Source: Streptomyces sp. Tu6071
GTDB lineage: Bacteria > Actinomycetota > Actinomycetes > Streptomycetales > Streptomycetaceae
Assembly: GCF_000213055.1 (NCBI RefSeq)
Contig: NZ_CM001165.1
Location: 1,116,001 to 1,180,000 of the forward strand
Direction of reading: 5' to 3'
Length of the DNA: 64,000 nt
The notes beneath the pieces were generated by a model. That model was not told the origin of the DNA, made no database searches, and saw nothing but the letters and a program-made list of their open reading frames with translations. The translations under genes and the position numbers were made by a program. Shown one piece after another: positions 24,376-53,781 of the stretch. Within the stretch, counting starts at the first letter, position 1. Every line of letters begins with the position of its first letter.

Positions 24376-24549
24376 ACAGACCGTGGGACCACGGACGTCG
24401 AGGCCCCCCGCCCGCCCCGGCGTGCGCCCCGTGGGGCACGCCGTGTGAGGCGTGGCCGGACGGCAGGTGGTGCGCGGCAGTCCGGCACGGAGAACAAGCG
24501 GCCGGGCGGCCATCGGGAACTGGAAGCATCGTTGACTTGGGGACGAACG

Positions 24550-25582: not shown

Positions 25583-28500
25583 TCACCTTCCCCGAGGACC
25601 TGGTGTCAGGGTGTCCAGCGGGAAGCCGGAACCGCCCGTCAGCTCCGCGCAGCGGTCGGCACTCAGGCGTCCCGCGAGGCCCGCGAGACTCTGCCACGCC
25701 CGCTGCGCCAGGGCGCGGTGTTCGCGCTGCTCCTGCCGCAGGCGGCGAAGCTCCTCCACGACGGCGTCGAGGGAACGCGCGGCCTCTCCCCGTCTCTGGA
25801 CGGCCCTCCGGTGGTCCTCCCGGAGCTCCTGGAGAGCGAGCCGGCTGGATTCGGTGATTCCCTCGGCGGCCCTCAGCTCGGCCTGCAGGCTTTCCAGCCT
25901 TTCGGTGAGACGGGCGACCTCCGCGCGGCTCGCCCGCAGTGCGCCCTCGCTGCTTCCCCACGCGCGCAACGCCTCGCGCTGTAGCTGCTCGGCGGCGCGC
26001 AGGGCGTCGACGGCGGCGTCCGGCGCGGGGGTACCGTCCGGCGCGGGGACGGCGGCCGCACGCGCGCGGAGGACCCGCTCGTCCGACGCGCGGAGGGACT
26101 CCTCGGCCTCCTCCACCTCGGTCTCAGCCGTGGCGACAGCCCGGAGCCCCTCGGTGAGTCGTCCCGCGGTGTCCCCGCGCCGGGTGCGTGCGCCGTTCTC
26201 GGCGGACTGTGCTTCTTCGTAGGAGGTGCGTGCCGCCTCCACGCGGATGCGCAGTCGCTCGCTCTCGCCCTCGGTCCGCGCGACGTTCGCGCGCAGGCCG
26301 TCGAGGCGGGCCTCCAGAGGCTGCTGCTCCGCCAGGGCCATCGCCTCCGCCTCGGTCTCGGCGGTGTAGGTGCTGCCGGCCGTTCGCAGTTCCTCCCATC
26401 CCTCCCGCGTCGTAGCGGTCACGTCCGAGAGCGAACCATCGGGTTCGATCGGCCAGAATCGCAGCCCGGTAGCGCCGCGTACGGCGAGTTCCACCCGGCG
26501 GTGGGCGATCTCCGCGACGCGAATGCCCACGTAGAGGGCCCTGCCGAGAACGGAACCGTCCGGGTCTTCGCCGACATCCACCCACAGCTGCGCACCGTCC
26601 GGCTCCGGTGCGAGCCCGGAGGCGAGCAGGCGGGGAAGCTCGGTGACCGGCTCCCGGATCCAGGCGCGGGAGTCGGCCGCCTCGTGCCGTGGGGCGGCGA
26701 CAGCCTCCTCCCGCCCTGTGGCGGGCGAAGGGCGCTGCCGACGCAGCAGCACGTCCATGTCGTACGCCCAGGGCTGGGAGGGTTCGCTGACGACCCCGTA
26801 GCCGAGCAGGTCGCGTTCCCCCGCGCGCAGGGTCACACTGCCGGTCACATAGCGGATGCCCCGCGGCCCCGTGACGGTGACGACAGCGTCGGCGTGCGCG
26901 AGGTGTGTGTAGGTGTCCCCTGCCGAGGCGGTGCCGGTCTTGACCCGGTACTGGCCGCCGGTGGTCACATTGCTGTCGGTGCTCCGTGTGACGGGCTGCG
27001 CCGAGAACAGGGGCTGGCTGCCACCGGGCACGTGCCTGTTGCCGCGATCGGCACTGAGCGCGAAGCGCTGGCCCAGTTCGAGGCCCTGGCTGCTGCTCGC
27101 GGTGCTCACGTCGACTCGCGTGCTGTTCCGGGCGCTGTCCGCGGCGACATCGGATGCGGCAGGCGTGAAGGGCCGCGGGTCGTAGACATCCACCTGGAGC
27201 GAGACGTGCGAGGCGTTGTCCGTCGAGAGGGGCCAGCTGCCGGGCATTCTGGGGTGGAGGCCGGCCGCCGTGCCGGGGGCGGTGAGCGCCGCTCCGCGTC
27301 CGGCGTGGGCGAGTTCGGTGAGGCGCGCGTTGGCCGCGTCAGGGTTGCTGTCAGCCGTCAGGCCCCAGTGCCCCTCGACACCGGGCGCGACGGCGCGAAT
27401 CGCCTCGGCCAGCTCCGGGAAGGCGTTGAAATGGCTGAGCGGAGTGGTCCCGGTGGGGACGAACCGCGGGTGGGTCCGCAGCGTACGGGACGCCTCCGCT
27501 CCTTCGACGGCGGCCGGCGCCAGGCGCGGGTCCTCCTCGTTCACGCGCGGGCGCAGCGGCGTCCACTCGACGCCGGTCGGTGCCGTTCCCTCGCCGGCGG
27601 AACGGACGCGGGTGTCGGCCGAGGCGAAACGGAGCGCCACGTCGGCCGGGACGGTGGACTCCTGAGGGGGCACCCCGCGCAGGAAGCCATCCAGGACGGC
27701 TTCGAGGAGGGGGCGCTCGCCGCGGTGCGCCACGGCGGTCAGACTCCCGCCGAGCAGCCCGCCCAGCAGCTCGAAGACGTCCGTGGAGATGAGGGTGGTG
27801 CGTACCGAAGCGGTCAGGCGGTAGCCGACCCGGTCGAAGTCCGCGACGCTGTCGGTGCGCTGCCAGAAACGCTCGTCGGCGGTGTGGTCGGAGCGGCGGG
27901 TCAGCGCGTGGGTGCGGCTCGCGGAGGGCAGTGCCGACCAGCGGTCGATGTAGCGGGAACGCCCTCGCGGAGCACGCAGGCCGAGGTCGAGCAGGCCGGT
28001 GACGACACGCGAGACGGTGTCGCTCTCGATCGTGTTCCCCGGAGCGTGCGTGGACTGCTGCTCGACCCCTGTCTTCTCCGCACCGGGACGTCCCCGGACT
28101 TCGCGCAGGGCAGGAGTCTGGGCCTCGGTCTCGGCTACGAGCGTCAGCTCGACCAGGCGGGCGTCGGCCCGTGCCCCGTAGCGGAACCACAGGCTGACGG
28201 AGCCGCGCGCCACGAGGGCGCGCAGTCCCGGCGAGGCGGTGAGGTCCGCGATGCGGGAGGCGACGCCCGGCAGGTGTGCGATGTGGCCGGGGCGGGTGAC
28301 GCCCGGAGCCACGCGCTCCACCAGTCGCGCCGCTTCCCGTCCCAGACGGTCACGGCTCAGCCTGCGCGTGATCGCGTCGTCGAGGGGGGTGACGGCCAGA
28401 ACGGCCCCGAAGCCGGGCGTCCGGGTGCGGGCGAAGTCGTCGGGCGGTGACACGGTCGTCTCCGGGACGGCCGGGAGGTCGATGCCCTCTATTCCTGTGA

Positions 28501-31500
28501 ACCAGCGTGCTTCCCGGAGGAGTTGTGTCGGGGAGAGCCGGAACTGGACGGCGCCGGGCAGATCGATGGCGAGGGTGATGTCCTGCTCGCTGCCGATGCC
28601 GACGGCGTTGCCCAGGACGTTGGCAGTGCCGCGCCGGACGGTGAGCAGCAGGGTGAGGTCCGTCGTGACGAGGTGCTGTCCCGCGCCTTCCGTGCCACCG
28701 CGTGTGGTGGCACTGGTGGCGGCGATGTCGTCGAAGTGCTCGTCCCGGTGTGCGCGCGAGAGCGTACCTGCCACGTTGCCCTGGATGATCCGGGCCACCG
28801 TGCCCTGCGGCGTCGGGCGGGGGGCGGCGCGCAGAGCGGTCAGCTCGGCGTTGCCGGTCACGGCGCTGCTCCGGGTGCGTCGCGTGGTGGCGAGGTCCGT
28901 CGCGTTGACGTCGCTCTGGCCCGAGACGGGGAAGGTGCTCCGCACCGCCGGGTGGTGCAGGTAGCCCTCCACGTCCACGGCGAGGTGACGGTCGGCGCCG
29001 AGGCCGGGCAGGACGATTCCTTCCGCGGTGTAGACACCGTTGAGGATCTGATGGGCCCGCGCGAGGAGGCTCGCCACGCGGACCTGCTGGTAGGCACTCT
29101 CGTTGGCGAAGGCGCCCCAGTCGCGCGGGTCCTGACCGGCGAGGTGGGCGACGGCCGAGGAGACGACCGGCAGGACGGCGGCCCCGCGGGAGGCGGCCGC
29201 GGTCACGCGGCCGAAGACGCCGGGGGCGGGCCGTCCCGGGTAGGTCTCGGCGGCGACGAGACGCAGGGCCTCCTGGATCGCTTCGGTGGCACGGAAGATG
29301 TCGGCGGTGGCGTCGTCGGGCAGCCTGGTGATGCCGGGCAGCGGATTGCCCTCGGCGTCGACGAGGCCGAGCCGGAAGCGGTCGTTGTCCTGACCGGGAC
29401 CGGTGCGGGGCGCGCGGATCGTGTAAGCGGGCACCTCCGGCACCTCCCGCGGTGCGGCGGGAGCCTCGGTGCCGGTGGTGGTGGCGCTGCCGGTGGCCGG
29501 GGCCCGGCCGGGGTCCGGTTCCGTCCGGTGGTGCGTGACCGCGAGCCGGACGGTCGCGGTCACGGTGCCGGGCGGCGCCTGGACCGGTGGGGGAGCCTCG
29601 GTCTCATCGGCGCTGTCGGCGAGATCCTCCTCGGTGCGCGGCTCCTCGGTGTCTTCCGCGCCGGTGGTCGCCGGGCGCGGTGCGAGTGTCCTCAGCGGGG
29701 CGGTCTCCGTGCCGGGCGGGACATCGAGGCCCGGCACGTCCTCCTCGGGATCCGTGGCGACGGTGATCCGCTCCAGGGGCTCGGCCCGCGGCGCCGGGGG
29801 CTCCGCGAATCGGGCGACCGGCTCCGGCGACGTGCCTTCGTAGAGGTCGAGTGCCACGCGGGCGGGTACGGAGAAGATCTCCGTACCGTCACTGGGGTTG
29901 CCCACCGCTTGCTCGGTCGCGATGGCGGAGCCGCTGGACGCGGCGTGGGCCCATGTCCGGTTCGCGACACCGTCGAAACCGTAGTCCACGGACCAGTTTC
30001 CGGCCGGCTGGCGGGGGCCACCGCCGAATCCGGCGCCTCCGCCGAACGCGGTGGAACGTTCCCGGGTCCCACGCGCTTCGTGCGAGCCGGTGGCGGTCGT
30101 GCCGATGCCCGGTAGTCGCAGCTCGTGGCGGGCGGCGGGAGCCCCCGCGTCTCCGGCGCGCGGCACTCGGTCGCGGGTGACGCCCAGACGCAGTTCGGCC
30201 CGGGTGGTGCCGGCTGTCGTGGGCAGTTCGAGCCACAGCGACCGCCCGCCCTCGACCGCGTCCGGCAGGGCCGCGGCACGGCCGATGCGGGAACGCAGTT
30301 GCTCGAAGCGCTGGAGGTTGGTCAGCTGGGCACGGGCGCGCCTGTCCTGGAGCCGTCCCTCCCACACCTGGTGTGCGAGCGGCGGCAGGTAGCGCAGCTC
30401 CCGCAGCCGCGTCTCGGCGCGATCGAAGATCTCGTCCACGCCCTCGAGGGCGAGTGGCACAGCGGTGTAGCCGATGGCGGCGAGTGCGTCGAGGTGGGCC
30501 GGCAGGACGCGGGCCTCCTCGTCCGTGGGCGGGGCTCCCGCGGCGGTCTCCTCCGGCAGCAGCCGCAGTTGGACGCTCTCCCCGCCGCGTTCGACCCGCA
30601 CAGGGCCCTGCGTCCCGCCTCCGGCGCGCAGGAGGGTGAACTCGTAGACGACGGCGGCGGGGGTCAGCAACTGCCCGCTGGAGGCCGTGAGTCCGTGCAT
30701 CAGTCCGGCCTTGGACGTGGTGCTGAACGTGTCCCCCGACTGCCAGGACCCCAGGAACTTGGCGTATACCCGGCCGCCCCAGCGATCCTCGGCGCCGGGA
30801 TGACCGGCCGCCGTGCTGGGGGTGAAGGTGGGGGCCACGTTGACTGTCAGGCCGGCACCGCTGACCGAGCGCGCCGTGCGCTCGGTGCCCGTGGTGTGCG
30901 TGAACCGGAGTTCGAGCGACTTGTCCCCGTCGGCTGTCTGGGCGGTGGGCTCGCCGGGTGTGACGACGGCACGCACGCGGAGGAGGCCCAGAGCCGTTCC
31001 CTCGTCGTCGGTGAGGAGCGGGGACATGACGCCGCGGTCGCGTTGCAGGTGCAGGGAGCCCCTGTTCATCTGCTCGTCGAGGAAGCCCTCCAGAGCGTGG
31101 CGTGATCCCTCGCCGAGGGCGCGCAGCCCGGGGAGTTGCGGGTGCTCGATGATCTGTGCGGGGCGCAGGTCGGTGTCCAGGACGTCGTCGATGCCCCACA
31201 GCGGGAAGGTGTCGAGTCCCGCGGCGCGCGGCAGCGGCGCCGCCGTCCCCTCCGCGCCGATCCGGTTGCCCGGGAACCAGAGGTGCATGGGCCCGTGGAC
31301 GTGTTCCGGGCCCCAGCCTTCGGCGCTGTCCGCCGCGCCGTCCACACGGACCTGCCAGACGCCGTCGAAGCGCACGGCGCCGGCGTCGTCGCCCGCCCGC
31401 TGGAGGACCTTGACCGAAAGGCTCTCGCTGAGGCCGACGTTGAGCGTGCGCTGACGCATGGTCACGTTGGGCGTCACCGTCACGGCGATCCAGCGGACCG

Positions 31501-34500
31501 GGCCCGAGGCGGGCTGGGGCAATGCGACGTAGGGCAGTGAGAAGGTGCGCGAAGTGCCGGAGCCCTGCGTCGAGGTGAGAGCCTGGACGCCCTCGCTCTG
31601 CCGTTCCAGGCGGCGGGTGCGCGGCAGGTTCCGGGTGATGCCGGTGCGCGGGTCCGGGCGCGGGGTGGTGAGGCGCAGCCGTATGTCCACCGTGTGCGTG
31701 ACCTCACCGACGCGTACCGTCATGCGATGGCCTCTGCTGCCACGGATCCGGGGCAGGTTCTCGGCGATCTCGGCGGAGCCCAGCGTCTCGTTCAGGTGTG
31801 CGCGCACCGTCTCCCGCGTGTCGTCGGCGTCCATCGGCAGCGCGGCCACGATCTGGCCGCGCAGGCCGCTCAGCACCTCGGCGGAGGGGAGCTCCCAGGC
31901 CACGAAGCCGACCGAGCCGTCGTGGCGCGCTCCGTAAGCCTGGATGTACGGCGAGAAGGCGGGCAGCGTTCCGGTGATCTCCGTCGTGGCAGGCGTCTCG
32001 GTGGTCTCCGTGGTGGCGGCCTCCTCACGAGGCCCGGTACGGGTTTCCGTCTCCTCCGCGGCGGCTTCCTCAGCAGGCGGGACGTGGGTCCTTCCGCTCG
32101 TGGCCTCCTCGGAGGGGCGAGATGTTCCGGCCTCGGTGGGAGTTCTCCCCTCCGTCGCTCGCGTCGACGTCCGGGTTCCCGGCGCGGTGCCGGCAGCTGC
32201 CGGCGCCACCTCCCGCGCGGGGATGACTCGTGGGGCGGCGCCCGGGGCGGGGGCGGCTTCCTCCGGGCGCGGGAGGGGTGCGGTGCCGGCCGGGTGCAGC
32301 GGCGCGGGCACGGGCCGGGGATCGATCCCGAAGAAGGTCTCGGGCACCGTCGGTGCGGGGGACGGCTTTGCCGGGGCGGGGCGCACGGCAGGCGGAGGCG
32401 GCGTGGTCCGGGCCGCTTCGCGGGCGGCGCCCGCGCGTTCCGTGGCGACCCACCGCGAGGTGTGCGGGGCGGGGTCCGGGGTGTGCAACAGGACGACCTC
32501 GCGTCCCTCGCGCGGGCCCGCGGCCCAGGCCCGGCCGTCGGGCAGCAGCACGACGACGCGGAGGCCGAGCACGGGCCCGGCCACCGCGAGAGCGAGCCAC
32601 TCGGAGGCGGCCGGGCCGGTACCCGTCCGCATTCCGGCCACGAGCGCGTCCGGCTCGGCGCCGGGCAGCAGCGGAACGCCGGGGTGAGGGCCCTCGGCAG
32701 GCAGCGCGAGCGTACGCCGCGCCTCGGGCAGCGCGAGTTCCGCGGCCAGTTCGTCCGCGAAGCGTTCCCTCAGCTCGCTCGGGGTCACGGGCCGTTCGCC
32801 TCGTGCGAGCGCGGAGGTCTCGGCCGGGGCGACTGCGGTGAGCAGGTGTGTCGTCGTGTCGCCGGTGGGGAGGATGTGCACGGGTGTCAGTCCGCGCTCC
32901 TCCAGGTAGGCGTCCGGCGTCACGCGCGCCGGGGCCTCCCGGCCCGGAGCGGGGGGCTCGTCCTTCCGCGCAGGGGCGGGGGACTCGCCTCCCCTTGCGG
33001 TAGCGGGGACTTCACGCACCGTCGCGGGTACACCGGTGACCCGTTCCGCCACGGGACGCGATCCGTCCCGTGGCGGAGTCTCCGTCCCGGTGACGCCGTC
33101 CTCTTCCGGTGCGGGAGGTGTGGTGGCCGCCTCGTGCTCCTCGACCCGGCGGCTCATCTCCTCGTACATGCGCACGATGTCGGCGACGCGGCCGCTGCCC
33201 GCCGGCGTCTCACGGGACGGCGCCGGGGGGGTGGGCGGGGCCAGCAGAGCTTCTTCCGACGAGTGGGCCGCCGGGTGGTCGGGCGCCGGGGGCGCCTGCC
33301 GGACGTCCTCGTCCCGGGACGGGGCGGGCAGGCGCAACGTGCCGGTGTTCGCGGCGTCCAGCACGGCGCGCAGCGTGTCGGGGTTCACCGGCCCGGGCTC
33401 GGCGCCGGACCGCGACGCCTCGGCGTGGGTGAGGACTTCGAGTTCCCGCCACCCGAGCGGGCCGGCCCCCTGCGACAGGCGCAGCCTCTCCAGCGTGCCG
33501 AAGCCGGTGAGGAGGGGCAGGAACTCGTCCTGGCGCTCCGGGCGCGTGTCGATGTCGAACCCCTGGACGAGACGCAGCGCGCGGATCCAGCGCAGGACGC
33601 GTGTGGTGCGCCGCGCCGTGTCCGCCGCCATCCCGGCGAGGTCGGCGAACGCGTCCAGCCGCCGGCTGTCCGGCTCGGGAAGGAACTGGTACCACGAGTA
33701 CCGGGGCCGTGCCGGGTCGTCCGTCTTGACGACGCGTGGCGGATTATCGCCATGCGCCTCCTCGATGGCGACGGCGGCGTCCGAAGCGAGCACGGGGTGT
33801 CCGGTCCGGTTGGCGACCTCCTGGGCCGCCGCCGGGCGCGTGAGCGGGTCGGCGCCCGGTCGCACCATGGCGATCTCGCACCACAGAAGCCACAGTGGTA
33901 CGTCCGGCGCGAGCCGTCGCACGCTGGGCCGCCGAGCGAGCACGCCGCCGAGTTCGCGCGCCGGGACGGCGTGGTTGGCACCCGTGCCGCGGCGGGGCAG
34001 GACGACACGGCCGCGTTCGCCGTGGCCGATGGACACGTAGGAACCGGAGAGGCCGCGCGGCAGGAGGAGCAGTGGGCCCGAGGCACCGCTGGTGAGACCG
34101 GGGATCGGCTCCAGGTCGTCGTAGTAGTAGAGCATCTCGGAGACGTGGCGCAGCGCCTCCTCACGACGGGCGACATCGGCCTCGTCGAGGTGCGCGCGCC
34201 CGGCCAGTTCCTGCCCGTCCGCCGTGAGGATTGGGTAGGAGGACAGGTCCTCGTCGGCGAACATCGTGGCGTCGGCCGCCTGGATCGTCGATCCGGGCCC
34301 GGGGACGAGGCCGGGGTCCGCGGGGACCCAGAGGCCCACGGGGGTCATCTCGCCGTCCGCGACGGGGGGGAAGGCGAAGGCCCGGATTCCTTCGGCGACG
34401 GGCTGGAGCCGGTAGGGCCTGGTGACGCCCCACGCGCGCGTCCCGGCCGCGTCCGCGACGAGCCGGGTCAGCACCTCCGAGGTGTCGCGGGGACGGGGCC

Positions 34501-37500
34501 CGACACCCACCACGACGGCGGCGTTCGGGTCGCGCCTCGGGTCGGCACCGACGAGCGCGGCGAACTCGGCCTCGTCGAGTGTGACCGTGTCGCCATTCCC
34601 GACGGCGACCAGGACGTCTCCGCCCTCCTCGTCGCGCTCGGCGACGGCCACGTGCGGGCGGGTTCCGCTCCAGGGGCCGCGAGCGGTGTGCAGGCGGTTG
34701 TCCTCCCCCGGCGCGAGGACGCTGTCCGCGTCCAGGACCAGCCCCGTACGGCCGGTGAAGTTGCGGCCGAGGAAGGTGCCGGAGGCGTCGGTGAGCACCG
34801 ACGCGGGCCCGAAGGCGCCCATCCTTCCCACACGGTAGGCGACGAGGGAGGGCAGGTCGCCGGACCAGCCCGCGCGCGCCGCGCTGGAGACGGTCTGCAA
34901 CGCCTCCATACGCTGCTGGGGTCCGACCTCCTGTCCCGGGGCCACGCGCAGGAGGCGCCGGACGACCGAGTCGAAGTCGAAGGGGGTCCCGGTGAGACGG
35001 GGGGTGGCCTGGTGGGCGCCGACGAGCGTGTGCAGGGCGGTGTAGAGACCCGGGAACTGACCGCTGGCCTCGACGCCCTCGCCGAAGGCGCGCCGCAGCA
35101 CTCCGGCCATCCTGGGATCGATGGCGGCCCGCGCGGCGGAGCCGTCGCCGGTCGGCGGGGCGGGATGCCAGGCGGTGCCTTCGGTACCGCCACGCGGTGT
35201 GAGGGGGTGAGCGACTACCGCGGAGGAGTCCGGGAGGGGTGTCGGGGAGGGGGTCTCTTCGACGCGTGTCCAAAAGGCCCGGAAGGCGCTGAGGACGAGC
35301 GGATTGTCGAGGCCGCCGCGTGCGGCGGGACGGCCGGGACCGTAAAGGCGCTGGAGGAGGGGCAGGAGGGCGGAATCGTGTCGCTCGACCCAGTCGGCGC
35401 CGTTGTTGCGGCGGGCCCCGGAGAGTTCGTCGATCCCGGCGTTCGCGGCGTGGTAGGCGGTCGTGAGCTGGGCGAAGTACTCGTGCGGGTCCGAGGACGA
35501 ATAGTTGGGGAAGGCTCCGTCGGGCCAGTGAACGGTCTCACCTGCGGCCTGGGCGGCGCGCTTGGCGTGGAAGACGTCCTCGATCCGCTGCCGGTCGGCC
35601 GGATCAAGGACGGACTCGACGGCGTGGGCCCACTCGTGGCGTGCGCTGGAGTAGCCGTCCGCGTAGGTACCCGCACCGTGGACCGCGGCGGGTTCACCGA
35701 GCAGATTCTCCTCCGGCACGCCCGCACGCCCGCGGGCGTAGCCGCCTCGCGCCGTGCGCAGCGAGCGACCGTCGGAGCCCCGCAGGCCGCGGAAGGCATC
35801 GACATCGGTGAAAGGAACGTCGCGGGGCACGACGAGCAGGTGACGGCCCGTGGTGAGCAGCGCCTCGGCCACATCGGCGTCGGCGGTCATCTCCTCGACC
35901 AGACGCCGCGCCTCCGCGCGCGCCTCCTCCGGGTCGTGGACACCGTCGGGCACCACGACGAGCCAATCGGCGGCCAGTTCCCGGAATGCGGCGTCATCCA
36001 GCCTCTCGCGCATGGCCCGCACGAGCCCGGGATCGGCGACCAGACGGGACCTGTCACCCGGTGCGAGCGCCCCCAGCCGCGCGTCGCGCTCCGACGCGCT
36101 CAGGCCGGGAAGGGTGTCGGCCAGTTCCGCCAGGGTTGCGGGCAGTACTCTCCCCGTCCCTGGCGCGGGGACCGGCACCGGCCCCGAACGCGGTGTCTCG
36201 GTCGCGGGAACGCGGCGCGGCCGGTCGAGCACCGGCGCCGGGGGCGCGGGGTAGGCGGCATAGCCGACCGGCGGCAGGCCGCGCACCGCGCGGGCCTCGT
36301 TGTAGGTTTCCAGCGCCACCCCGGCCAGGGTGTCCGACTGTTCGAGAACATCGTCATCACGAGAGTCGACAGGCGCGTAGGAGCGGACCTCCACCCGCAC
36401 GGCCGCCGGCACGATGCGCGGACGCCCCCAGCCGTCGGGGTTGCTGTCGAGGGTGTCGAAGTTCGAGCGGACCACGTGCGATTCGTACTGGTCCACGGGG
36501 CGGGCGGGACTCTCCCGGAGCAAGTTGTCCAGGTACTCGCCGAGGGTGGGCCGCGGGCCCAGACCGACGTCCCGCAAGCGCTGCGTCAGCGGATCGCCGT
36601 CATAGCCCAGAGCGGAGCCCATCACCCCCGCCAGAGTCGCGGCCTGGTGCTCGAGGAAGGCGCGGGGCGCGGCACCGAGAGAGGCACGGACCGCGGCCAG
36701 CGACTCGCGCGAGGTCGCCGCCGTCCAGTCCTTGGGATAGTTCGTCCTGGGCTGACGACCGCGGAAGGCCGAGGCCACCTGCGCGTACCCCAGGGTGAGA
36801 GCACCCACGAGATCCGCCATGTCGGACGCCGTGGCCGCCTCCGCCCACTCGGGGTACGTCCGCAGCCACTCGGCGAACCGGCTACCACCAGCCTCGCCCA
36901 CGAGGAGAGCCTGACGGCCGTCCTCGTGCGCGGCCGTCAGGACGGGCCCGGCGGCCGGACGCATACGGCCCAGCACATGCCGCAACAAGGCGGGATAGCC
37001 AGCCACTGGCACGGCCACGGTGTGGTGCACCAGGATCTGGGTGGAGGGGTGCTCCTGGAGCCACAACTCCTCCGCTTCCATGTCGACGGTGTAACCGTGC
37101 GAAGCGGGGAAAAGCGCCGGGAAACGAGCAGTACGGGGCGCGTGCGCGATGCGGTGCAAGGCGTCCAGGAACGCCGTCGCCACCGCTCGCGGCTCCGCGC
37201 GTCCGTCGTCCTGGCCGCCCGCGAGGGCACGAGCCGGGCGCGAGACGATCTCCAGGACGGCATGCTCGCCCACGTGATCGATGGTGATGTCGAGCAAGCC
37301 GTCCACACTCACCAGCGTGCCGAGCGCGCGATGGTCCACGTCACGCGGCACGGCCACACGCATGAGGTGCACCTCGGCCTCGAAGCCTCGCGCCGGAGCG
37401 AAACCCTCGACCTGGGGGGTGTGTTCCGGCGACGGCAGCAGCGGTGCGGCACTCCTCTGCCCCAGGTCGCGCGGCGAGCGTCGGCGGGATGATCCCGCCG

Positions 37501-40500
37501 CACCCGCCGCCGGCTGCGCCGAGCGCTCCTCGATCTCCCGCCGAAGACGCCTGACCGCCTCGTCGCGCGAACTCCTTCCACTCTTCGTCGCCCGCCACTC
37601 GGCGATCCTGTGCGTCACACGGTCGCGCAGTGCCGCCTCGTTCGGGCCACCCCAGCCTTCCTGGAGACGCCGCACCGCGCGATCGACCGCGCGCAGTTCC
37701 TCGGAACGACGCCCGCCACCCGAACGCTGCACCCACTCCCGAATGATCCCGGGGACCCGGCCGGACGAAGAGGACTGCCCGGGTGCCTGCGGGGCGAGCC
37801 GCACCGATTCGTCGGCGGCGGCGCCGACGGGCCGCTGCCCCGCAGCAGCCTGCGCTCCCGTGTGCGGAAGTGGCGGCGGGGGGGCCGGGGTCGCTTCCCG
37901 CACAGGGGAAACGGGCCCGGTCGGTGCGGCGTCCCGCTCTCCGGCGGGCTCGCCGCGCGAGGGGTCCGCCGTCTCGACGGATTCGGTGCGCGAGGTATCC
38001 GGCTGGTCTTCCACGGGCGCCCTGTTCGCCGCGTTCGAGGTGTGCCGGGTGGGGCCGGCTGTCGCGGGATAGGTGACCACCGGCACGCCGCCGACCGGCT
38101 CGTCGGCGGGTTCTTCCCTGCCCGGAGCGGGCTTCACCACGGCCGGGACGGCCTCGTACGCGGGCGATGCCGGCTTGGCCGTCGCAGGGACCGTGTCGTC
38201 TACCGCGCCCCTTGGTCCGGCCCCGGAACGGGTCGCCGGTTCTGCGGTGTCCCGCCGCCGGGTGGTGGGTTCCTCCGGGGCGGGCACGGCGCGAGCGGGG
38301 GCTTCCCGAGAAGCCTCCTCGCGCGCGGGCTCTCCTCCCCCGCGCCGCTGGGCTTCGACGCCGGCACGCTCGGGGGAGATCGCGGGCAGGCCGGTGCCCG
38401 ACGCCCCCGCGTCCTCTCCGTTCGTGGCGACGGGCGACGGCGTGCGGGACGTGTCGTCGGTGATCCTCGCGGTCGCGAGCTCCTCGACCCGCTGGTCGAA
38501 ACGTTCCCGGAAACGTGCGATGTCCCCGCCCGGGGCCCACGCCCGCTCCGCCTGCTTCGCCCAACCACCGGCCTCCGCCGACGACATACCGTGACGCTCG
38601 GCGAATCGACGGACGAGATCGCTCCACTGCTCGGGGGAACGGTTCGCCACCCGGTCTTCGATCGCGTGGTCCAGCAAGCGGCTCGCCACGCTCTCCTCGA
38701 CGCGCTGCCACCCGCGTGCGTCGCCCTCCATGCGCGCTTCGCGATACGCCGCGCCGAACCGCGCCGCCTCCCGCGCGTCGAGGCCCTGCCCCCGGGCGTG
38801 CCGCTCCATCGCCCTGCCCCACTCGTCCGGCGACATCCCCGCGATCCGCTCGCGCTGACCCGTCTCGGTGGCGGGACTCCGCACGGCCTCCTGTGCGTGC
38901 GTCTCCCTCGTGGCGGACGCCGAGGGCTTTGCCGGGACGTGCTCCTCGTACACCTCGTCGCGGGCGCGACCGGACACGCCCTGGCCGTCCTTCAAGAGAC
39001 CGTGGTCCCGCAGCATTCCCTCGTACACGCCGTGCCCGGACGGCAGCGCCGAAACGCCCTCCTCCTTGGTCGGCTGGGGAGCCGGACGGCTCGTGACAGG
39101 CGCCGCGCTCGTCGGCTCGTCCCTCGCCGGAGGCGTCGTCGCGCCCGCCGTGCCCTCGTGCCTCTTCGCCCCCAGCTCCTCGACCCGCTGATCGAAACGC
39201 TCCCGGAAACGCCCGAGGTCCCCACCCGCGGCCCACGCCCGCTCCCCCTGCTTCGCCCAACCACCGGCCTCCGCCGACGACATACCGTTGCGCTCGGCAT
39301 GACGCCGGACGACATCACCGAACTGCTCCGGCGTACGGTTCGCCACCCGCTCCGCGATCTCCCGATCCACCCCCGACCGGTCCCCGCCCGAACCGGGCCG
39401 GAGGGTGGGGGCCGGGTCATCGGTCCGACCGGGCGCGGGGGGAGGCGTCTCCTCGCCCGCCTCCCGCCGCGCGGTGCCGGACGGCGTGCCGTGGTCCCGG
39501 GCGGGCGGGGGCACATCGGAGGAGTCGTTCCGCCCGGCCGAGTCCGGACCGCTCTCGCGGGCCGGAGCGGCGGGGGGCCCCGTCTCCCCGTCCCTGGCCC
39601 CGTGGACCTGGTCCCACAGGGCGTCACGCTTGTGCTTGCCGAGTGAGTCGAGCCAGTCGGGGACGGACGGGCGCTCGCGTTCCGCGACCGTCACCCGTCC
39701 GTTTCCGGGTCGTTCGGTGACGGGAGCGCCACCGCCCGGGGATCGCCGCGAGACGTCGCCGTGCCCGTCGCCGTCGGACCGTCCGCTTCGGTCGAGGCCG
39801 TCGCCGCCGGACCGGTCGTCGCGACCGGCCCGGCCGTCGCGGCCACCGTACGCGTCGTCGCCGTCGTCACCGTAACCGGTACGCGAGGTGCGTGGGCCAT
39901 TGCCGCCACCACCGTTCTCACCCCGGCCCGCGCCACCGGCTTCGGGCGCTCCGCCGGAGCGTGAGCCGTCCGGGAGCGTGTCACCGTGAGCGGCCCCGCC
40001 GCGGCCGTCGCCGCCGTTCCCCGGCCGGTCAACGGGCTTGGGGAGCGGGGACGAGGAGGTGCCGTCCTGGGCGGAGGGATGCGGAGTCCGATGGTCGCTC
40101 GTGCTGTGCGCCTGCTGCTCCGCACGGGACTCACGGAGGGCGTCGAACCAGGCGGTGGCCGCCTTGTTCTCAGCCGGGGAGTCGCCGGTGGCCCGCGCCC
40201 GCACCCAGTCGTCGTGCAACTCCCGGGTCCTGGCGGCGGACAACCCGCTGCCGCGGGCGTCCTCCCACATGGCGTCCAGGCGGCGCCGGCTCCAGCCGGG
40301 ACTCTCCTTGAGCGGAGGGGCGCCATGGCGCTCCTGACCGGGGTACGGCTCACCCGGACGGTTCTGTCCGTCGCCGTCCCTGCCACGGCCGCCGGTGTTC
40401 TGACGGCCATGACCGTCCCTGTCACCGCCGCCGGTACCCCGTCCGTCCCCCGGCCGCGGGGCCGCCGAGGAGGAGGTGTCGTCCTGCCCGTGCGTCCTCG

Positions 40501-42778
40501 GCGGGCGGTGGTCGCGCATACCGTTCAGCTGCTTCTCGACGCGCGCGTCGGCGACGGCGTCGAACCAGGCGGAAGCGGCCTTGTTCTCGGCCGCCTTGTC
40601 ACCGGAGACACGGGCGTCGGCCCAGTCGTCGTACAGGGCGCGAGTCCTGGACTCGGACAGGCCGCTGTCGCGGGCGTCCTCCCACATCCGGTCGACGCGT
40701 CGCCGGCTCCACCCCGGGCTCTCCCGCAAGGGAGTGGAGCCCGAGCCGTCCGTGTCCGAGCCGCGCCGGTCGCCACGAGGCGGCGGAGCGGAGTGCGATT
40801 CATGGCCGTCACCGGTCCGCGATGTCCCGGTGACGGGCCGCTCGCCGGCCGGGGGCTGCTGGGTCCGTCCGTCCGCGTCGGGACGGCGCGCCGGCGGCGG
40901 CGCGACCGGCTGGTCTCCCGGCGCGGGACGGGAAGCCCGCGGAACGGCGTCGCCCGGTCCCGTCTCGGTCGTGTCGCGGGAGCCGCCGCCCGGTACGGGA
41001 GTGTTCCGACGCTCGCCGCCGGTCCCGGCGGACTGCCGTGAGGGATCGTCCACTCCCCCGGGCTCACCACTCCGATTCGCCGGCGGCTGGGCGAGATGGT
41101 CCGAGCTGTCTCCCGTACGCACTCGCTCGGCCGGATTGCCGTGCGCGGGCGGCTTCGGCACCGCGCCCTGGTCGCCGATCCGCTCGGAGTGACCGCCCGC
41201 GGGCGCGCGCTGGGCGGAGCGGTTCGTGTCATCGTCGCGGCTGTTCGTCCCCCCGGGGCGTTCGGCCGCGGGCGGCGCGGTGCCGAGCGAGTCGGCACCG
41301 CGCCCGCCGGCACGTGGCGGCGTACTGTTCTGCGCCCCCTCGCCGCCCGGCGCCTGCCTGGCGGGTTCGGTCACCGGAGGAGCGGTACGCGTCCCCTGGT
41401 TCCCGACAGGCTCCCGGGACGAGGAGGTGCCGCGACGCGGCACGTCGTTCTGGACGCGGTCGCCGGAGCCGGCAGGCGCCCGCCCTCCCGGGTCGCGGGC
41501 CGGGGGCCCGGCATGGCTCACGCCGTGTTCGGAGGTGGCGGGCGGGGGCACCGCGCGGGTGTCCTGTCCGTTGCCTCCCGGCCCGGAGCGGTCCCCGTGC
41601 GGGCCCGTGTTCTCCGCGACGCGGTTCACGGGGACAGGCCGCGACTGGCTCCCGCCCTCGGGCGTCCCGTCCGGGGTGCTCTGTCGGGGGGCCGTCGTGG
41701 GCGGGGGCGTGGAACGCGTTCCCTCTCCCCCCGTGCGCTCGCCACCGGAGTACGAGCCGTTCCGGATCTCGGCCTTATTGGTGAGCGGGGCGGGCGTGCC
41801 GGTGGCGCGCCCGGCGCCTTCGGCGCGCGCTGCGGGCGGTGGGGGCATCCCGACATCGTGCGTGCGGTTCCCGCCGGCCGGGCCGCTGCTGGTGGGTGCC
41901 GAGTCGTTGACGGAGACGCCGCCCTTGACAGGAGGTGGAGTTCCGCCGGAGCCGGCCGGGGACTCGTTGCCGCCGCGCCTGGTCTGCGGGGGCGGTGGGT
42001 TGAAGGTGTTGTCCTTGCCGCCTCCTACGACCGAGTCGGCGTCGCCGGTGCGGTCCGTCTTCGGGACCGGAGGGGTCTTCACGGGCGGGCTCCCGGCGGG
42101 GACGCCACCGGGCGACCCGGGTTTCGGCACGCCGTGGTATCCCCCGAGGCCTCCCGCGATCCCGCCGAAGCCGCCACCGATACCGAGTGTCAGCGCCTCG
42201 GCACCCCAGTCGATGTCGTAGTCCGTGTGCGCGATCGCGGCTCCTGCCGCGCCGACCCCCAGATCGAACGCGAGCCCGGACGCGGACCCGATCACGGCGC
42301 CGCCGATCGAACCGACCACGGCGCTGCCGATCGGGCCGAGGCGTCCCGCCATGGAGGCGATGACCGGGATGAGCCGGGCGATGAGCTGCCCGATCATGGC
42401 GAGCACGCTCTCCAGGAGCGGCCCCAGGTAGAAGAAGACCGCACCGAGGAGGGCACCGAGGATGTCGGCCCACATCATCGCGTTGAGCTTCTTCGCGTAC
42501 TCCTCGGCCGCCTCGTGCAGCTTGTCGGCGTACCGGTTGATCGTCTGCCCGACGGTCCAGGCGGTCTCGATCGCGTCGTCCAGGTTCTTGGCGGTCGCGT
42601 CCGTCCAGGCGAGCCGGGCCCCGTTGCCCGCCGCCCCCGTCCACGTCATGCCGGCCACGTCCGAGTCGACCGCGGTCCGGCGCTCGTGGAGTTCGTCCCC
42701 CAGCTTGATCCAGGCGTTGCCGAGGGCGTAGATGTCCTCGAGCTTGATGGTGTTGAGTACCGAATCCGCGGAAGCCAT
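25583..42778 (-). CDS. Giant type VII-associated multidomain protein (5,731 residues, lonely-Cys-like)
   Basis: One unbroken frame of 17.2 kb; ATG 42778 has GAGGAGG eight bases upstream. Order: 1-95 helical WXG100-like head with MTWTGAAG (Trp46); 98-190 strongly hydrophobic; about 240-680 and 1450-1670 disordered Pro/Gly/Arg/Thr linkers; two copies of an SPGWSRRR module (about 683-760 and 823-896); PEQF/PEQW helical repeats (about 1143-1205, 1312-1438); an unassigned domain (about 1798-2172); a metallopeptidase-like domain with HEWAH at 2381-2385 and Glu2433; a domain (about 2553-3144) with the lone Cys2967 in LWLLWCEIA; an alpha/beta domain about 3285-3450; beta-rich regions about 3606-5480; a coiled coil about 5480-5690. 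Only two cysteines were found (2967 and 5710). NCBI names such giants 'lonely Cys' proteins, from memory. It lies 79 bp after eccC; its start favours export by EccC. Effector, scaffold or surface protein are all open. Confidence 0.88.
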   Translation of the reverse strand: MASADSVLNTIKLEDIYALGNAWIKLGDELHERRTAVDSDVAGMTWTGAAGNGARLAWTDATAKNLDDAIETAWTVGQTINRYADKLHEAAEEYAKKLNAMMWADILGALLGAVFFYLGPLLESVLAMIGQLIARLIPVIASMAGRLGPIGSAVVGSIGGAVIGSASGLAFDLGVGAAGAAIAHTDYDIDWGAEALTLGIGGGFGGIAGGLGGYHGVPKPGSPGGVPAGSPPVKTPPVPKTDRTGDADSVVGGGKDNTFNPPPPQTRRGGNESPAGSGGTPPPVKGGVSVNDSAPTSSGPAGGNRTHDVGMPPPPAARAEGAGRATGTPAPLTNKAEIRNGSYSGGERTGGEGTRSTPPPTTAPRQSTPDGTPEGGSQSRPVPVNRVAENTGPHGDRSGPGGNGQDTRAVPPPATSEHGVSHAGPPARDPGGRAPAGSGDRVQNDVPRRGTSSSREPVGNQGTRTAPPVTEPARQAPGGEGAQNSTPPRAGGRGADSLGTAPPAAERPGGTNSRDDDTNRSAQRAPAGGHSERIGDQGAVPKPPAHGNPAERVRTGDSSDHLAQPPANRSGEPGGVDDPSRQSAGTGGERRNTPVPGGGSRDTTETGPGDAVPRASRPAPGDQPVAPPPARRPDADGRTQQPPAGERPVTGTSRTGDGHESHSAPPPRGDRRGSDTDGSGSTPLRESPGWSRRRVDRMWEDARDSGLSESRTRALYDDWADARVSGDKAAENKAASAWFDAVADARVEKQLNGMRDHRPPRTHGQDDTSSSAAPRPGDGRGTGGGDRDGHGRQNTGGRGRDGDGQNRPGEPYPGQERHGAPPLKESPGWSRRRLDAMWEDARGSGLSAARTRELHDDWVRARATGDSPAENKAATAWFDALRESRAEQQAHSTSDHRTPHPSAQDGTSSSPLPKPVDRPGNGGDGRGGAAHGDTLPDGSRSGGAPEAGGAGRGENGGGGNGPRTSRTGYGDDGDDAYGGRDGRAGRDDRSGGDGLDRSGRSDGDGHGDVSRRSPGGGAPVTERPGNGRVTVAERERPSVPDWLDSLGKHKRDALWDQVHGARDGETGPPAAPARESGPDSAGRNDSSDVPPPARDHGTPSGTARREAGEETPPPAPGRTDDPAPTLRPGSGGDRSGVDREIAERVANRTPEQFGDVVRRHAERNGMSSAEAGGWAKQGERAWAAGGDLGRFRERFDQRVEELGAKRHEGTAGATTPPARDEPTSAAPVTSRPAPQPTKEEGVSALPSGHGVYEGMLRDHGLLKDGQGVSGRARDEVYEEHVPAKPSASATRETHAQEAVRSPATETGQRERIAGMSPDEWGRAMERHARGQGLDAREAARFGAAYREARMEGDARGWQRVEESVASRLLDHAIEDRVANRSPEQWSDLVRRFAERHGMSSAEAGGWAKQAERAWAPGGDIARFRERFDQRVEELATARITDDTSRTPSPVATNGEDAGASGTGLPAISPERAGVEAQRRGGGEPAREEASREAPARAVPAPEEPTTRRRDTAEPATRSGAGPRGAVDDTVPATAKPASPAYEAVPAVVKPAPGREEPADEPVGGVPVVTYPATAGPTRHTSNAANRAPVEDQPDTSRTESVETADPSRGEPAGERDAAPTGPVSPVREATPAPPPPLPHTGAQAAAGQRPVGAAADESVRLAPQAPGQSSSSGRVPGIIREWVQRSGGGRRSEELRAVDRAVRRLQEGWGGPNEAALRDRVTHRIAEWRATKSGRSSRDEAVRRLRREIEERSAQPAAGAAGSSRRRSPRDLGQRSAAPLLPSPEHTPQVEGFAPARGFEAEVHLMRVAVPRDVDHRALGTLVSVDGLLDITIDHVGEHAVLEIVSRPARALAGGQDDGRAEPRAVATAFLDALHRIAHAPRTARFPALFPASHGYTVDMEAEELWLQEHPSTQILVHHTVAVPVAGYPALLRHVLGRMRPAAGPVLTAAHEDGRQALLVGEAGGSRFAEWLRTYPEWAEAATASDMADLVGALTLGYAQVASAFRGRQPRTNYPKDWTAATSRESLAAVRASLGAAPRAFLEHQAATLAGVMGSALGYDGDPLTQRLRDVGLGPRPTLGEYLDNLLRESPARPVDQYESHVVRSNFDTLDSNPDGWGRPRIVPAAVRVEVRSYAPVDSRDDDVLEQSDTLAGVALETYNEARAVRGLPPVGYAAYPAPPAPVLDRPRRVPATETPRSGPVPVPAPGTGRVLPATLAELADTLPGLSASERDARLGALAPGDRSRLVADPGLVRAMRERLDDAAFRELAADWLVVVPDGVHDPEEARAEARRLVEEMTADADVAEALLTTGRHLLVVPRDVPFTDVDAFRGLRGSDGRSLRTARGGYARGRAGVPEENLLGEPAAVHGAGTYADGYSSARHEWAHAVESVLDPADRQRIEDVFHAKRAAQAAGETVHWPDGAFPNYSSSDPHEYFAQLTTAYHAANAGIDELSGARRNNGADWVERHDSALLPLLQRLYGPGRPAARGGLDNPLVLSAFRAFWTRVEETPSPTPLPDSSAVVAHPLTPRGGTEGTAWHPAPPTGDGSAARAAIDPRMAGVLRRAFGEGVEASGQFPGLYTALHTLVGAHQATPRLTGTPFDFDSVVRRLLRVAPGQEVGPQQRMEALQTVSSAARAGWSGDLPSLVAYRVGRMGAFGPASVLTDASGTFLGRNFTGRTGLVLDADSVLAPGEDNRLHTARGPWSGTRPHVAVAERDEEGGDVLVAVGNGDTVTLDEAEFAALVGADPRRDPNAAVVVGVGPRPRDTSEVLTRLVADAAGTRAWGVTRPYRLQPVAEGIRAFAFPPVADGEMTPVGLWVPADPGLVPGPGSTIQAADATMFADEDLSSYPILTADGQELAGRAHLDEADVARREEALRHVSEMLYYYDDLEPIPGLTSGASGPLLLLPRGLSGSYVSIGHGERGRVVLPRRGTGANHAVPARELGGVLARRPSVRRLAPDVPLWLLWCEIAMVRPGADPLTRPAAAQEVANRTGHPVLASDAAVAIEEAHGDNPPRVVKTDDPARPRYSWYQFLPEPDSRRLDAFADLAGMAADTARRTTRVLRWIRALRLVQGFDIDTRPERQDEFLPLLTGFGTLERLRLSQGAGPLGWRELEVLTHAEASRSGAEPGPVNPDTLRAVLDAANTGTLRLPAPSRDEDVRQAPPAPDHPAAHSSEEALLAPPTPPAPSRETPAGSGRVADIVRMYEEMSRRVEEHEAATTPPAPEEDGVTGTETPPRDGSRPVAERVTGVPATVREVPATARGGESPAPARKDEPPAPGREAPARVTPDAYLEERGLTPVHILPTGDTTTHLLTAVAPAETSALARGERPVTPSELRERFADELAAELALPEARRTLALPAEGPHPGVPLLPGAEPDALVAGMRTGTGPAASEWLALAVAGPVLGLRVVVLLPDGRAWAAGPREGREVVLLHTPDPAPHTSRWVATERAGAAREAARTTPPPPAVRPAPAKPSPAPTVPETFFGIDPRPVPAPLHPAGTAPLPRPEEAAPAPGAAPRVIPAREVAPAAAGTAPGTRTSTRATEGRTPTEAGTSRPSEEATSGRTHVPPAEEAAAEETETRTGPREEAATTETTETPATTEITGTLPAFSPYIQAYGARHDGSVGFVAWELPSAEVLSGLRGQIVAALPMDADDTRETVRAHLNETLGSAEIAENLPRIRGSRGHRMTVRVGEVTHTVDIRLRLTTPRPDPRTGITRNLPRTRRLERQSEGVQALTSTQGSGTSRTFSLPYVALPQPASGPVRWIAVTVTPNVTMRQRTLNVGLSESLSVKVLQRAGDDAGAVRFDGVWQVRVDGAADSAEGWGPEHVHGPMHLWFPGNRIGAEGTAAPLPRAAGLDTFPLWGIDDVLDTDLRPAQIIEHPQLPGLRALGEGSRHALEGFLDEQMNRGSLHLQRDRGVMSPLLTDDEGTALGLLRVRAVVTPGEPTAQTADGDKSLELRFTHTTGTERTARSVSGAGLTVNVAPTFTPSTAAGHPGAEDRWGGRVYAKFLGSWQSGDTFSTTSKAGLMHGLTASSGQLLTPAAVVYEFTLLRAGGGTQGPVRVERGGESVQLRLLPEETAAGAPPTDEEARVLPAHLDALAAIGYTAVPLALEGVDEIFDRAETRLRELRYLPPLAHQVWEGRLQDRRARAQLTNLQRFEQLRSRIGRAAALPDAVEGGRSLWLELPTTAGTTRAELRLGVTRDRVPRAGDAGAPAARHELRLPGIGTTATGSHEARGTRERSTAFGGGAGFGGGPRQPAGNWSVDYGFDGVANRTWAHAASSGSAIATEQAVGNPSDGTEIFSVPARVALDLYEGTSPEPVARFAEPPAPRAEPLERITVATDPEEDVPGLDVPPGTETAPLRTLAPRPATTGAEDTEEPRTEEDLADSADETEAPPPVQAPPGTVTATVRLAVTHHRTEPDPGRAPATGSATTTGTEAPAAPREVPEVPAYTIRAPRTGPGQDNDRFRLGLVDAEGNPLPGITRLPDDATADIFRATEAIQEALRLVAAETYPGRPAPGVFGRVTAAASRGAAVLPVVSSAVAHLAGQDPRDWGAFANESAYQQVRVASLLARAHQILNGVYTAEGIVLPGLGADRHLAVDVEGYLHHPAVRSTFPVSGQSDVNATDLATTRRTRSSAVTGNAELTALRAAPRPTPQGTVARIIQGNVAGTLSRAHRDEHFDDIAATSATTRGGTEGAGQHLVTTDLTLLLTVRRGTANVLGNAVGIGSEQDITLAIDLPGAVQFRLSPTQLLREARWFTGIEGIDLPAVPETTVSPPDDFARTRTPGFGAVLAVTPLDDAITRRLSRDRLGREAARLVERVAPGVTRPGHIAHLPGVASRIADLTASPGLRALVARGSVSLWFRYGARADARLVELTLVAETEAQTPALREVRGRPGAEKTGVEQQSTHAPGNTIESDTVSRVVTGLLDLGLRAPRGRSRYIDRWSALPSASRTHALTRRSDHTADERFWQRTDSVADFDRVGYRLTASVRTTLISTDVFELLGGLLGGSLTAVAHRGERPLLEAVLDGFLRGVPPQESTVPADVALRFASADTRVRSAGEGTAPTGVEWTPLRPRVNEEDPRLAPAAVEGAEASRTLRTHPRFVPTGTTPLSHFNAFPELAEAIRAVAPGVEGHWGLTADSNPDAANARLTELAHAGRGAALTAPGTAAGLHPRMPGSWPLSTDNASHVSLQVDVYDPRPFTPAASDVAADSARNSTRVDVSTASSSQGLELGQRFALSADRGNRHVPGGSQPLFSAQPVTRSTDSNVTTGGQYRVKTGTASAGDTYTHLAHADAVVTVTGPRGIRYVTGSVTLRAGERDLLGYGVVSEPSQPWAYDMDVLLRRQRPSPATGREEAVAAPRHEAADSRAWIREPVTELPRLLASGLAPEPDGAQLWVDVGEDPDGSVLGRALYVGIRVAEIAHRRVELAVRGATGLRFWPIEPDGSLSDVTATTREGWEELRTAGSTYTAETEAEAMALAEQQPLEARLDGLRANVARTEGESERLRIRVEAARTSYEEAQSAENGARTRRGDTAGRLTEGLRAVATAETEVEEAEESLRASDERVLRARAAAVPAPDGTPAPDAAVDALRAAEQLQREALRAWGSSEGALRASRAEVARLTERLESLQAELRAAEGITESSRLALQELREDHRRAVQRRGEAARSLDAVVEELRRLRQEQREHRALAQRAWQSLAGLAGRLSADRCAELTGGSGFPLDTLTPGPRGR
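35480..35638 (-). other. Metallopeptidase-like active site inside the giant gene (HEWAH ... E)
   Basis: HEWAHAVES codes from 35638 downward: His2381, Glu2382, His2385 fit the zinc-binding HExxH rule. 48 residues later SSSDPHEYFAQL provides Glu2433 as a possible third ligand, the spacing and local sequence seen in anthrax-lethal-factor-like (ATLF) peptidase domains, where the acid lies in an (E)YFA(E/Q) helix. The match is motif-level only. Confidence 0.6.
38460..39355 (-). repeat. Duplicated PEQ(F/W) / MSSAEAGGWAKQ helical modules within the giant gene
   Basis: Around 39165-39355 and 38465-38665 the frame reads NRTPEQFGDVVRRHAERNG or NRSPEQWSDLVRRFAERHG, then MSSAEAGGWAKQ, ERAWAPGGD or ERAWAAGGD, and FRERFDQRVEEL. 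A third, more divergent unit (MSPDEWGRAMERHARGQG) sits between them. Confidence 0.75.
40095..40735 (-). repeat. Two copies of a 70-residue helical module within the giant gene
   Basis: About 40500-40735 and 40095-40315 encode segments beginning ESPGWSRRR, then MWEDAR(D/G)SGLS, R(A/E)LYDDW or LHDDW, AENKAA(S/T)AWFDA. They are far more similar than the flanking disordered linker, so one arose from the other by duplication. Confidence 0.75.
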
Positions 42779-47051: not shown

Positions 47052-47504
47052 TCAGTCGGGGAAGGTCATCGTGATGGCCGTCTTGTTGGTGTCGGTCTCC
47101 TCGGCGGGCGGCGTGTCCTTGGGGTCCTCGCCGGACCCGCCGCCGGTGAGCGCGTCGTGGAACTTGCTGAAGCCGTCCTTGATGCCGTTCTCGGCCAGGC
47201 TGTAGTTGTGCTCGGCGTCCGAGACGCCGCCGGCGAGCACGGGCAGCACGGCGGGGGTGTCGTCGTCCTTGAGGCCGAACAGTTCACGCATCACGCGGTT
47301 CCACTCGTCCACAACGGCCTGAGCGTCGGAGGCGGCCTTCCCCTCCCAGCGCAGCCGCAGCCCGAAGATGCGGTCGCCGATGGCCTTGGTGGTCTCCGAA
47401 ACCTCCTTGCTCAGTTCGGTCAGCTTCTTCGCCGACGACGCCATCCCCTGCGGGGAGATCTTGAGGGAGGAGGAGTCGTAGTCGGCCTCGCCGTTGGCTG
47501 CCAT
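47052..47504 (-). CDS. WXG100-family protein
   Basis: The 150-residue protein is a helical hairpin with WEG (Trp53, RLRWEGKAASDAQ) between the two helices. The acidic C-terminal tail (EDPKDTPPAEETDTNK) extends beyond the usual 100 residues. It is the gene just upstream of eccC and therefore a strong candidate substrate or partner of that motor. ATG 47504 follows GGAAAGG at seven bases. Confidence 0.9.
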   Translation of the reverse strand: MAANGEADYDSSSLKISPQGMASSAKKLTELSKEVSETTKAIGDRIFGLRLRWEGKAASDAQAVVDEWNRVMRELFGLKDDDTPAVLPVLAGGVSDAEHNYSLAENGIKDGFSKFHDALTGGGSGEDPKDTPPAEETDTNKTAITMTFPD

Positions 47505-47574
47505 GACGCACCTTTCCGGCGAAATGCGTTGCCGGGCGCGGGAGTTGCTCCCGTACTCGACATCACTTCCGCGC

Positions 47575-51519: not shown

Positions 51520-51592
51520 CACGCCTCCGCCCGCCGGGCCCCGGTCCGCCGAGCCCGTGGCTCACGCACTGCCGACGCACGGGGGGCGGGCC

Positions 51593-53330: not shown

Positions 53331-53385
53331 GGTCTCTCCTTGGTTGTCCGGCCGTCGGCCCCGGGACACCGCCCGGGGCGGCGGA

Positions 53386-53751: not shown

Positions 53752-53781
53752 GGATTTCCGCCCTTCTCGCCTGCTACCGCG

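Follow-up and report, generated by a model that had tools for sequence, protein, structure and literature searches.

The window, the whole stretch of 64,000 nucleotides analysed here, contains a type VII-like locus that ends in a single giant gene lying directly behind eccC, as the earlier note had it. On the minus strand the order of transcription is two WXG100-like genes, eccD, a gene for a beta-helix/AAA protein, a further WXG100-like gene, a WXG100 gene, eccC and finally the giant, with a 208-aa gene placed on the opposite strand between the last two WXG100-type genes. The genes of the locus are:

24445..25479, plus strand: ricin-B-lectin gene, convergent with the giant
25583..42778, minus strand: giant gene, 5,731 aa, ATG start, defined by its reading frame, an orthologue and dN/dS
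42858..46997, minus strand: eccC, with three FtsK/SpoIIIE-type stretches and three Walker A motifs
47052..47504, minus strand: WXG100 gene immediately 5' of eccC, with YSLAE
47676..48302, plus strand: gene of 208 aa running against its neighbours, with YGHAD close to its end
48376..48717, minus strand: WXG100-like gene, with YHAAE
48799..51522, minus strand: EccA-like (EccA/SpoVK-type) AAA ATPase fused to a right-handed beta helix
51593..52939, minus strand: eccD, comprising a YukD and a transmembrane part (TIGR03920, 97.4 bits; cut-off 94.95)
53016..53369, minus strand: WXG100-like gene, with YSDAE
53386..53790, minus strand: WXG100 gene, with YKESE

A 466-aa frame at 47052-48452 was discarded, as it is actually the WXG100 gene read together with the antisense of the plus-strand gene.

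The giant frame consists of 5,731 stop-free codons on the minus strand, opening with ATG 42778 and closing with the stop at 25583, and the unbroken 17.2-kb frame described previously therefore stands, as does its strong ribosome site: the ATG follows the end of eccC (42858) after 79 bp and has GAGGAGGG just upstream. The longest conceivable frame would start at GTG 42919 (5,778 aa); ATG 42778 was preferred because the GTG frame overlaps eccC and the ATG has the ribosome site. Long shadow frames are common at a GC content of 71.7%, reaching 1,932 aa on the plus strand, and the frame was therefore tested for coding. The GC content at codon positions 1/2/3 is 0.76/0.60/0.87, and Streptomyces pyxinicus has an intact orthologue of 6,038 aa, which starts at position 2567 of its locus (L004), where the eccC frame ends at 2508. 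Over 5,691 aligned codons the two genes have an NG86 dN/dS of 0.42, estimates of this kind being crude at 71.7% GC. Module by module, the ratio is lowest in the head (0.13), followed by the zinc metallopeptidase or zincin (0.24), BETA1 and BETA2 (0.31), module M (0.35), the lonely-Cys domain (0.45), the linker (0.53), the small module (0.54) and the coiled coil (0.70). The frame is real, and chance is excluded: that it is a spurious product of GC-rich DNA, born of chance or of an assembly artefact as the long shadow frames on the opposite strand might suggest, has a negligible probability in view of the codon-position GC, the intact orthologue, the dN/dS and the existence of homologues of like design. 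In strain NRRL F-5630 (L002; protein P0003, 4,637 aa) the N-terminal part of the giant is out of frame with the remainder.

The modules of the protein were mapped with profiles made from alignments of the giant and its relatives. From head to tail, all on the minus strand, they are:

42059..42778, minus strand: WXG100-like helical head (W46-T-G) and hydrophobic neck, residues 1-240 (sequence, weak Pfam match, dN/dS)
37862..42058, minus strand: Pro/Gly-rich linker bearing helical modules, residues 241-1639 (sequence, dN/dS 0.53), probably disordered
40499..40756, minus strand: helical module a, copy 1, residues 675-760 (profile mapping)
40082..40327, minus strand: helical module a, copy 2, residues 818-899 (profile mapping)
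39161..39370, minus strand: helical module b, partial copy, residues 1137-1206 (profile mapping)
38459..38866, minus strand: helical module b, residues 1305-1440 (profile mapping)
36164..37861, minus strand: module M, residues 1640-2205, in common with giants P0007 and P0016 (profile mapping)
35315..36109, minus strand: gluzincin-type metallopeptidase, residues 2224-2488 (HEWAH and Glu2433)
33350..35101, minus strand: lonely-Cys domain, residues 2560-3143, with a caspase-like core in the model (NF012197, model)
32399..32926, minus strand: small module, residues 3285-3460 (profile mapping)
29801..31957, minus strand: BETA1, residues 3608-4326, with very long strands in the model (alignment, model)
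26396..29572, minus strand: BETA2, residues 4403-5461 (profile mapping)
25586..26371, minus strand: C-terminal coiled coil, residues 5470-5731 (weak SMC matches)

This map recovers every part that had been read from the sequence before: the WXG-like head, the hydrophobic neck, the duplicated helical modules, the peptidase-like and lone-Cys domains, the long beta-rich regions, one of which was modelled, and the coiled coil. A search of slices against Pfam and NCBIfam, suggested at the same time, gave no Pfam match at E 0.1 for three overlapping slices of the giant; NCBIfam returned NF012197 ‘lonely Cys’ (E 2.6e-69) and weak SMC matches over the coiled coil. A terminal toxin domain was recognised in the giant with neither collection.

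W46xG is found in three of the four giant heads compared, and the head of the giant matches PF25547 below the Pfam cut-off (E 0.0059). None of the four has a YxxxD/E motif in its first 130 residues. The neck, judged by eye, spans residues from about 101 to 215. Two candidate relationships of the head were rejected. When six modules of the giant were searched against PHROGs, the head gave the only match below 0.001 (E 0.00032), which was attributed to composition and not to kinship with tape-measure proteins; likewise, kinship with the heads of six other giants (P0007, P0009-P0011, P0014 and P0017) is not shown by an hhalign E of 0.0095 and a probability of 4%. Module M matched no known fold by sequence, and its profile found no credible match among PDB sequences. 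The small module, for which the middle of the L005 copy reads X, is possibly and tentatively a decayed OTU-like fold, as judged from a motif and not from a tool match.

By its motif the metallopeptidase is a gluzincin, with HEWAH at residues 2381-2385 (35624-35638) and a downstream Glu2433. HExxH and the Glu are intact in 24 of 28 zincin copies; one has Asp and three are decayed. Similarity to known families is weak: one of ten members matched PF07737 (ATLF, lethal-factor-like) at E 0.0065 and two of ten the M90 model at E 0.0098, the giant's own copy matching neither in Pfam. The zincin profile had no credible match among PDB sequences.

The lonely-Cys domain scores 234.5 / 237.5 bits with NF012197, over the curated cut-off of 200 bits. 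Its match of 237 bits covers positions 7-576 of 707, compared with up to 907 bits for the best members of the survey described below, and on sequence it is a divergent branch of the family. The protein has only two Cys in 5,731 aa, at 2967 and 5710, and the former (33878-33880, minus strand) is the sole Cys within the domain. Together with His2919 (34022-34024, minus strand) it forms a predicted dyad, and the columns of both residues are invariant in all 22 aligned lonely-Cys members. Among 40 copies, which are not independent since P0010 and G131, and P0005 and P0006, resemble near-duplicates, His and Cys are jointly present in 34 and jointly absent in six. P0008 accounts for five of these six, so that the losses amount to few events. 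The same protein keeps HExxH and Glu in all six of its zincins, yet five of its six lonely-Cys copies are without His and Cys.

A His-Cys catalytic pair, with the His first, is a defining trait of caspase-like (clan CD) peptidases. In the model of the lonely-Cys domain the His is located in strand 360-367 and the Cys immediately past strand 408-412. Foldseek returned no match under E 0.001, its top rows being reductases, while in a VIA comparison the nearest rows were C80-type toxin peptidases, at Z <8, a range where common arrangements can score. Pfam peptidase families, C80 included, had zero matches in the 22 lonely-Cys members at E up to 1, and the profile found no credible match among PDB sequences. 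In sequence and model the His2919/Cys2967 pair, His first, matches the clan CD catalytic layout, and catalysis is predicted; the domain probably resembles the caspase-like peptidases that process toxins.

Beyond the lonely-Cys domain lies BETA1-BETA2, a beta module of 1,850 aa that recurs in other giants. BETA2 follows BETA1 in the mapped homologues, with the exception of P0008, a partial record; that the two are copies of one another found no support in hhalign (probability 0.2%). BETA1 has many invariant residues over 15 aligned sequences, and the alignment of BETA2 contains partial rows. Of five models, that of BETA1 has a middling pLDDT of 78.9 (pTM 0.73) and the other four have values of 65.8-73.5. 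The BETA1 model has strands of 27 to 35 residues, and structurally it comes closest to pore-form perforin-like proteins and outer-membrane barrels, superficial likenesses with TM <=0.16 and an rmsd ranging from about 3 to 23 A across short segments; all that is shown, therefore, is a long beta meander. Residue alternation exceeds that of shuffles at 0.05 (uncorrected) in six of 15 strands, and in two of five among strands of at least 27 residues. With such TM values and mixed alternation, BETA1 was rejected as an established pore, and a membrane role of BETA1-BETA2, suggested by the model, is a guess. Neither the BETA1 nor the BETA2 profile had a credible match among PDB sequences. BETA1 matches occur in five of 101 genomes, the window's own counted. 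Outside that genome there are five BETA1 frames, four of them no more than about 21 kb from an eccC and the fifth on a contig that has no eccC.

A search with residues 1900-4200, covering the 972 candidate proteins that share most words with it, matched at least 16 proteins, the query among them; the others are 3,822 to 7,478 aa long. Modules are shuffled among these relatives: P0008 has six zincin and lonely-Cys pairs in a row, P0011 has two BETA1-BETA2 pairs, and genome G068 has five such pairs in one frame of 15,168 codons adjoining eccC (L053-L055). Pfam domains within the same proteins as these modules include PF15644, PF22596 and PF18626, which we take to be toxin-type domains.

When 150 Streptomyces genomes were sampled, scoring six candidates per genome and merging rows of one frame into one, lonely-Cys matches were found in 36, the window's own included, with 20 over the family cut-off. 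They comprise 45 distinct frames, of which one belongs to the window's genome. Measured from stop to stop, 27 of the other 44 frames are longer than the giant (among them one of 8,816 in G057, read through a TGA) and seven reach at least 10,000 codons. The giant had been ranked among the largest substrates of the pathway, should it be exported; that ranking has to be given up, and its size is no surprise. The longest, an open frame of 17,018 codons beside eccC in G069 (G069:C1; L048-L051), is to our knowledge among the longest bacterial frames.

The survey also bears on the link with type VII secretion. From 29 genomes, 33 of the 45 lonely-Cys frames share a contig with an eccC over the cut-off (TIGR03924), none of the 33 being more than 42.2 kb away from it, with distances taken between matched domains and not between gene ends. 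In 31 the giant and eccC are on opposite strands; the window and G133 are the two cases in which they are on the same strand. For the remaining 12 frames, from nine draft genomes split into about 100 to 810 contigs (G032, G056, G077, G084, G112, G126, G127, G135 and G138), the contig has no eccC above the cut-off. The association is not due to chance and is without exception where it is testable, so that giants of this family are not located mostly away from eccC, an outcome that had been named as a possible refutation.

A complete ESX (T7SSa) set comprises EccB, EccC, EccD, EccE and mycosin. Like ESX loci, the window has EccC, EccD, an EccA-like ATPase and WXG100 proteins; unlike them, its locus is without EccB, EccE and mycosin, and the EccA-like ATPase is fused to a beta helix. 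Profile searches of the whole genome gave zero matches for eccB and eccE, an eccB too divergent for the model being conceivable, and no mycosin in the locus, as the genome's matches, one of them over the cut-off, all lie outside the window. Thus, the exporter may not work as a standard ESX system. In G069, G068, G053, G131, G100, G025, G091 and G133, eccB is found within 3.4 kb of the eccC that adjoins the giant. In the five of these genomes that the mycosin search covered, a match that stays under the family cut-off is located some 2 kb from eccC, and in the same five there is no EccE beside the giant, matches occurring only elsewhere. Strain AcH 505 has the gene order of the window's cassette, with the opposite-strand 208-aa gene kept in place, and its sole eccB match is about 320 kb away; the eccB-less cassette is therefore conserved in at least two species. 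The 208-aa gene has no Pfam or NCBIfam match, and none of its 56 homologues, the named ones being from Streptomyces, Actinomadura, Actinoallomurus and Actinacidiphila, has a precomputed Pfam domain. It may mark eccB-less cassettes. Sequence like the beta-helix/AAA gene is also present near the giants of G068 and G100 (L052, L066).

On its 3' side the giant is followed by the convergent ricin-B-lectin gene in all four orthologous loci (the window, L002, L003 and L004). In none of the four does a gene on the giant's own strand come after it; the place where an immunity gene would usually lie thus holds none, which makes a target other than sister cells more likely. Elsewhere in the window, an Rhs-core-like fragment at 59096-59917 on the plus strand (TIGR03696, E 3.6e-9) and a second, identified by eye, at 62847-63317 on the minus strand have a SUKH-like gene close by (58137-58790; E 2.5e-5, slightly under the cut-off); these are perhaps the remains of an Rhs toxin-immunity locus.

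At the level of how it would work, the giant, with a probable caspase-like domain inside its chain beside putative effectors, is like the MARTX and large clostridial toxins. The C80 domains of those toxins are activated by inositol hexakisphosphate and bring about self-cleavage. The His-Cys spacing is 49 in the cysteine protease domain of Vibrio cholerae MARTX and 48 in the giant's lonely-Cys domain. Unlike these toxins, the giant has no C80 Pfam match and is type VII-linked in a Gram-positive organism, and unlike classical polymorphic toxins it has no immunity gene directly downstream. It resembles the lonely-Cys proteins of NF012197 in exceeding the curated cut-off and having a single conserved Cys in the domain. 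Zhang et al. (2012, PMC3482391) have described giant multi-peptidase toxins of actinobacteria, for example gi 345002682 and 326780819, and arrays of caspase-like domains in which the catalytic residues are sometimes missing; the kind is therefore already known. Compared by description, the giant, with a metallopeptidase motif and a probable caspase-like domain in one actinobacterial chain, is like them and differs in that no ADP-ribosyltransferase or MCF1-SHE domain was recognised in it; in the available part of that paper no mention was found of a BETA1-BETA2 module or an eccB-less locus. Among the papers listed, none deals, at the level of title and opening of the abstract, with lonely-Cys giants as type VII cargo in Streptomyces, and PMC12691689 and PMC12419801, as far as their accessible text goes, treat other proteins. 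Within the literature searched, novelty lies in the structural reading of the lonely-Cys domain, in His and Cys being lost together, in the figures that link the giants to eccC, in the BETA module and in a cassette without eccB.

The earlier note had left the function unknown. Export and target, along with self-cleavage and toxicity, are things that we infer from architecture and analogy. The function can nevertheless be narrowed, because of the caspase-like appearance of the lone-Cys domain, the gluzincin motif and the description of the group in 2012 as giant toxins of many domains. We consider it reasonably probable that the giant works in the manner of MARTX and large clostridial toxins, as a self-processing multi-effector, and that a stripped type VII system exports it. 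YxxxD/E is a type VII export signal, which in ESX pairs can sit on just one of the partners. YxxxE is present in all four small WXG100-like proteins of the cassette and in none of the four giant heads, which suggests that the giant is exported as a partner. Its WXG-like head, devoid of YxxxD/E, would pair with one of the four co-encoded proteins; EccC would recognise the pair, and export would proceed via EccC and EccD, with the beta-helix/AAA protein as a putative chaperone-like ATPase. Outside the cell, BETA1-BETA2 might aid docking to, or crossing of, a membrane, the weakest step of the scheme. Upon a signal, the caspase-like domain, with its modelled His2919/Cys2967 dyad, would cut the chain, and cleavage would free the zinc metallopeptidase, and perhaps further modules, to attack the target.

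The best of the alternatives, if an unlikely one, is that the giant belongs to the surface or matrix proteins of the Streptomyces life cycle, such as an adhesin or hyphal-wall scaffold, with a link to type VII secretion; its own peptidases would mature or release it, and it would be no toxin. Long linkers, a coiled coil and beta modules capable of tandem repetition, as in the five pairs of G068, are consistent with such a protein, as are the lack of a directly downstream immunity gene in four of four loci and of a recognised terminal toxin domain, and a presence in 36 of 150 genomes also fits an accessory surface trait; the toxin-type Pfam domains within the relatives' chains and the shuffling of catalytic domains as modules argue for a toxin instead. 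So does the same domain mix, in company with ADP-ribosyltransferases, given by Zhang et al. (2012, PMC3482391). A bolder form of the favoured reading, in which the EccC/EccD/beta-helix-AAA exporter is the genome's only type VII system, it exports a self-cutting giant, and BETA1-BETA2 is a new membrane-crossing device, is rather doubtful. Quite improbable, finally, is that the giant is not exported at all, either because its proximity to eccC reflects shared regulation alone or because a cassette devoid of EccB, EccE and mycosin does not secrete. All 33 lonely-Cys frames that share a contig with eccC lie close to it, the head is the most conserved module, AcH 505 keeps the gene order of the stripped cassette and the four small proteins carry YxxxE, each of which counts against this view, whereas the unmatched eccB and eccE of the genome and mycosin of the locus, the four heads without YxxxD/E and the unproven passage of so long a chain are in its favour.

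If the giant is indeed an exported, self-processing multi-effector, some very large bacterial proteins, with frames of up to 17,018 codons, would be tied to type VII secretion, and the ‘lonely Cys’ would gain a probable job in caspase-like self-processing. The cassette would also provide a naturally reduced type VII machine with which to ask whether EccB, EccE and mycosin are needed, and the locus makes the membrane passage of such long chains a testable question.
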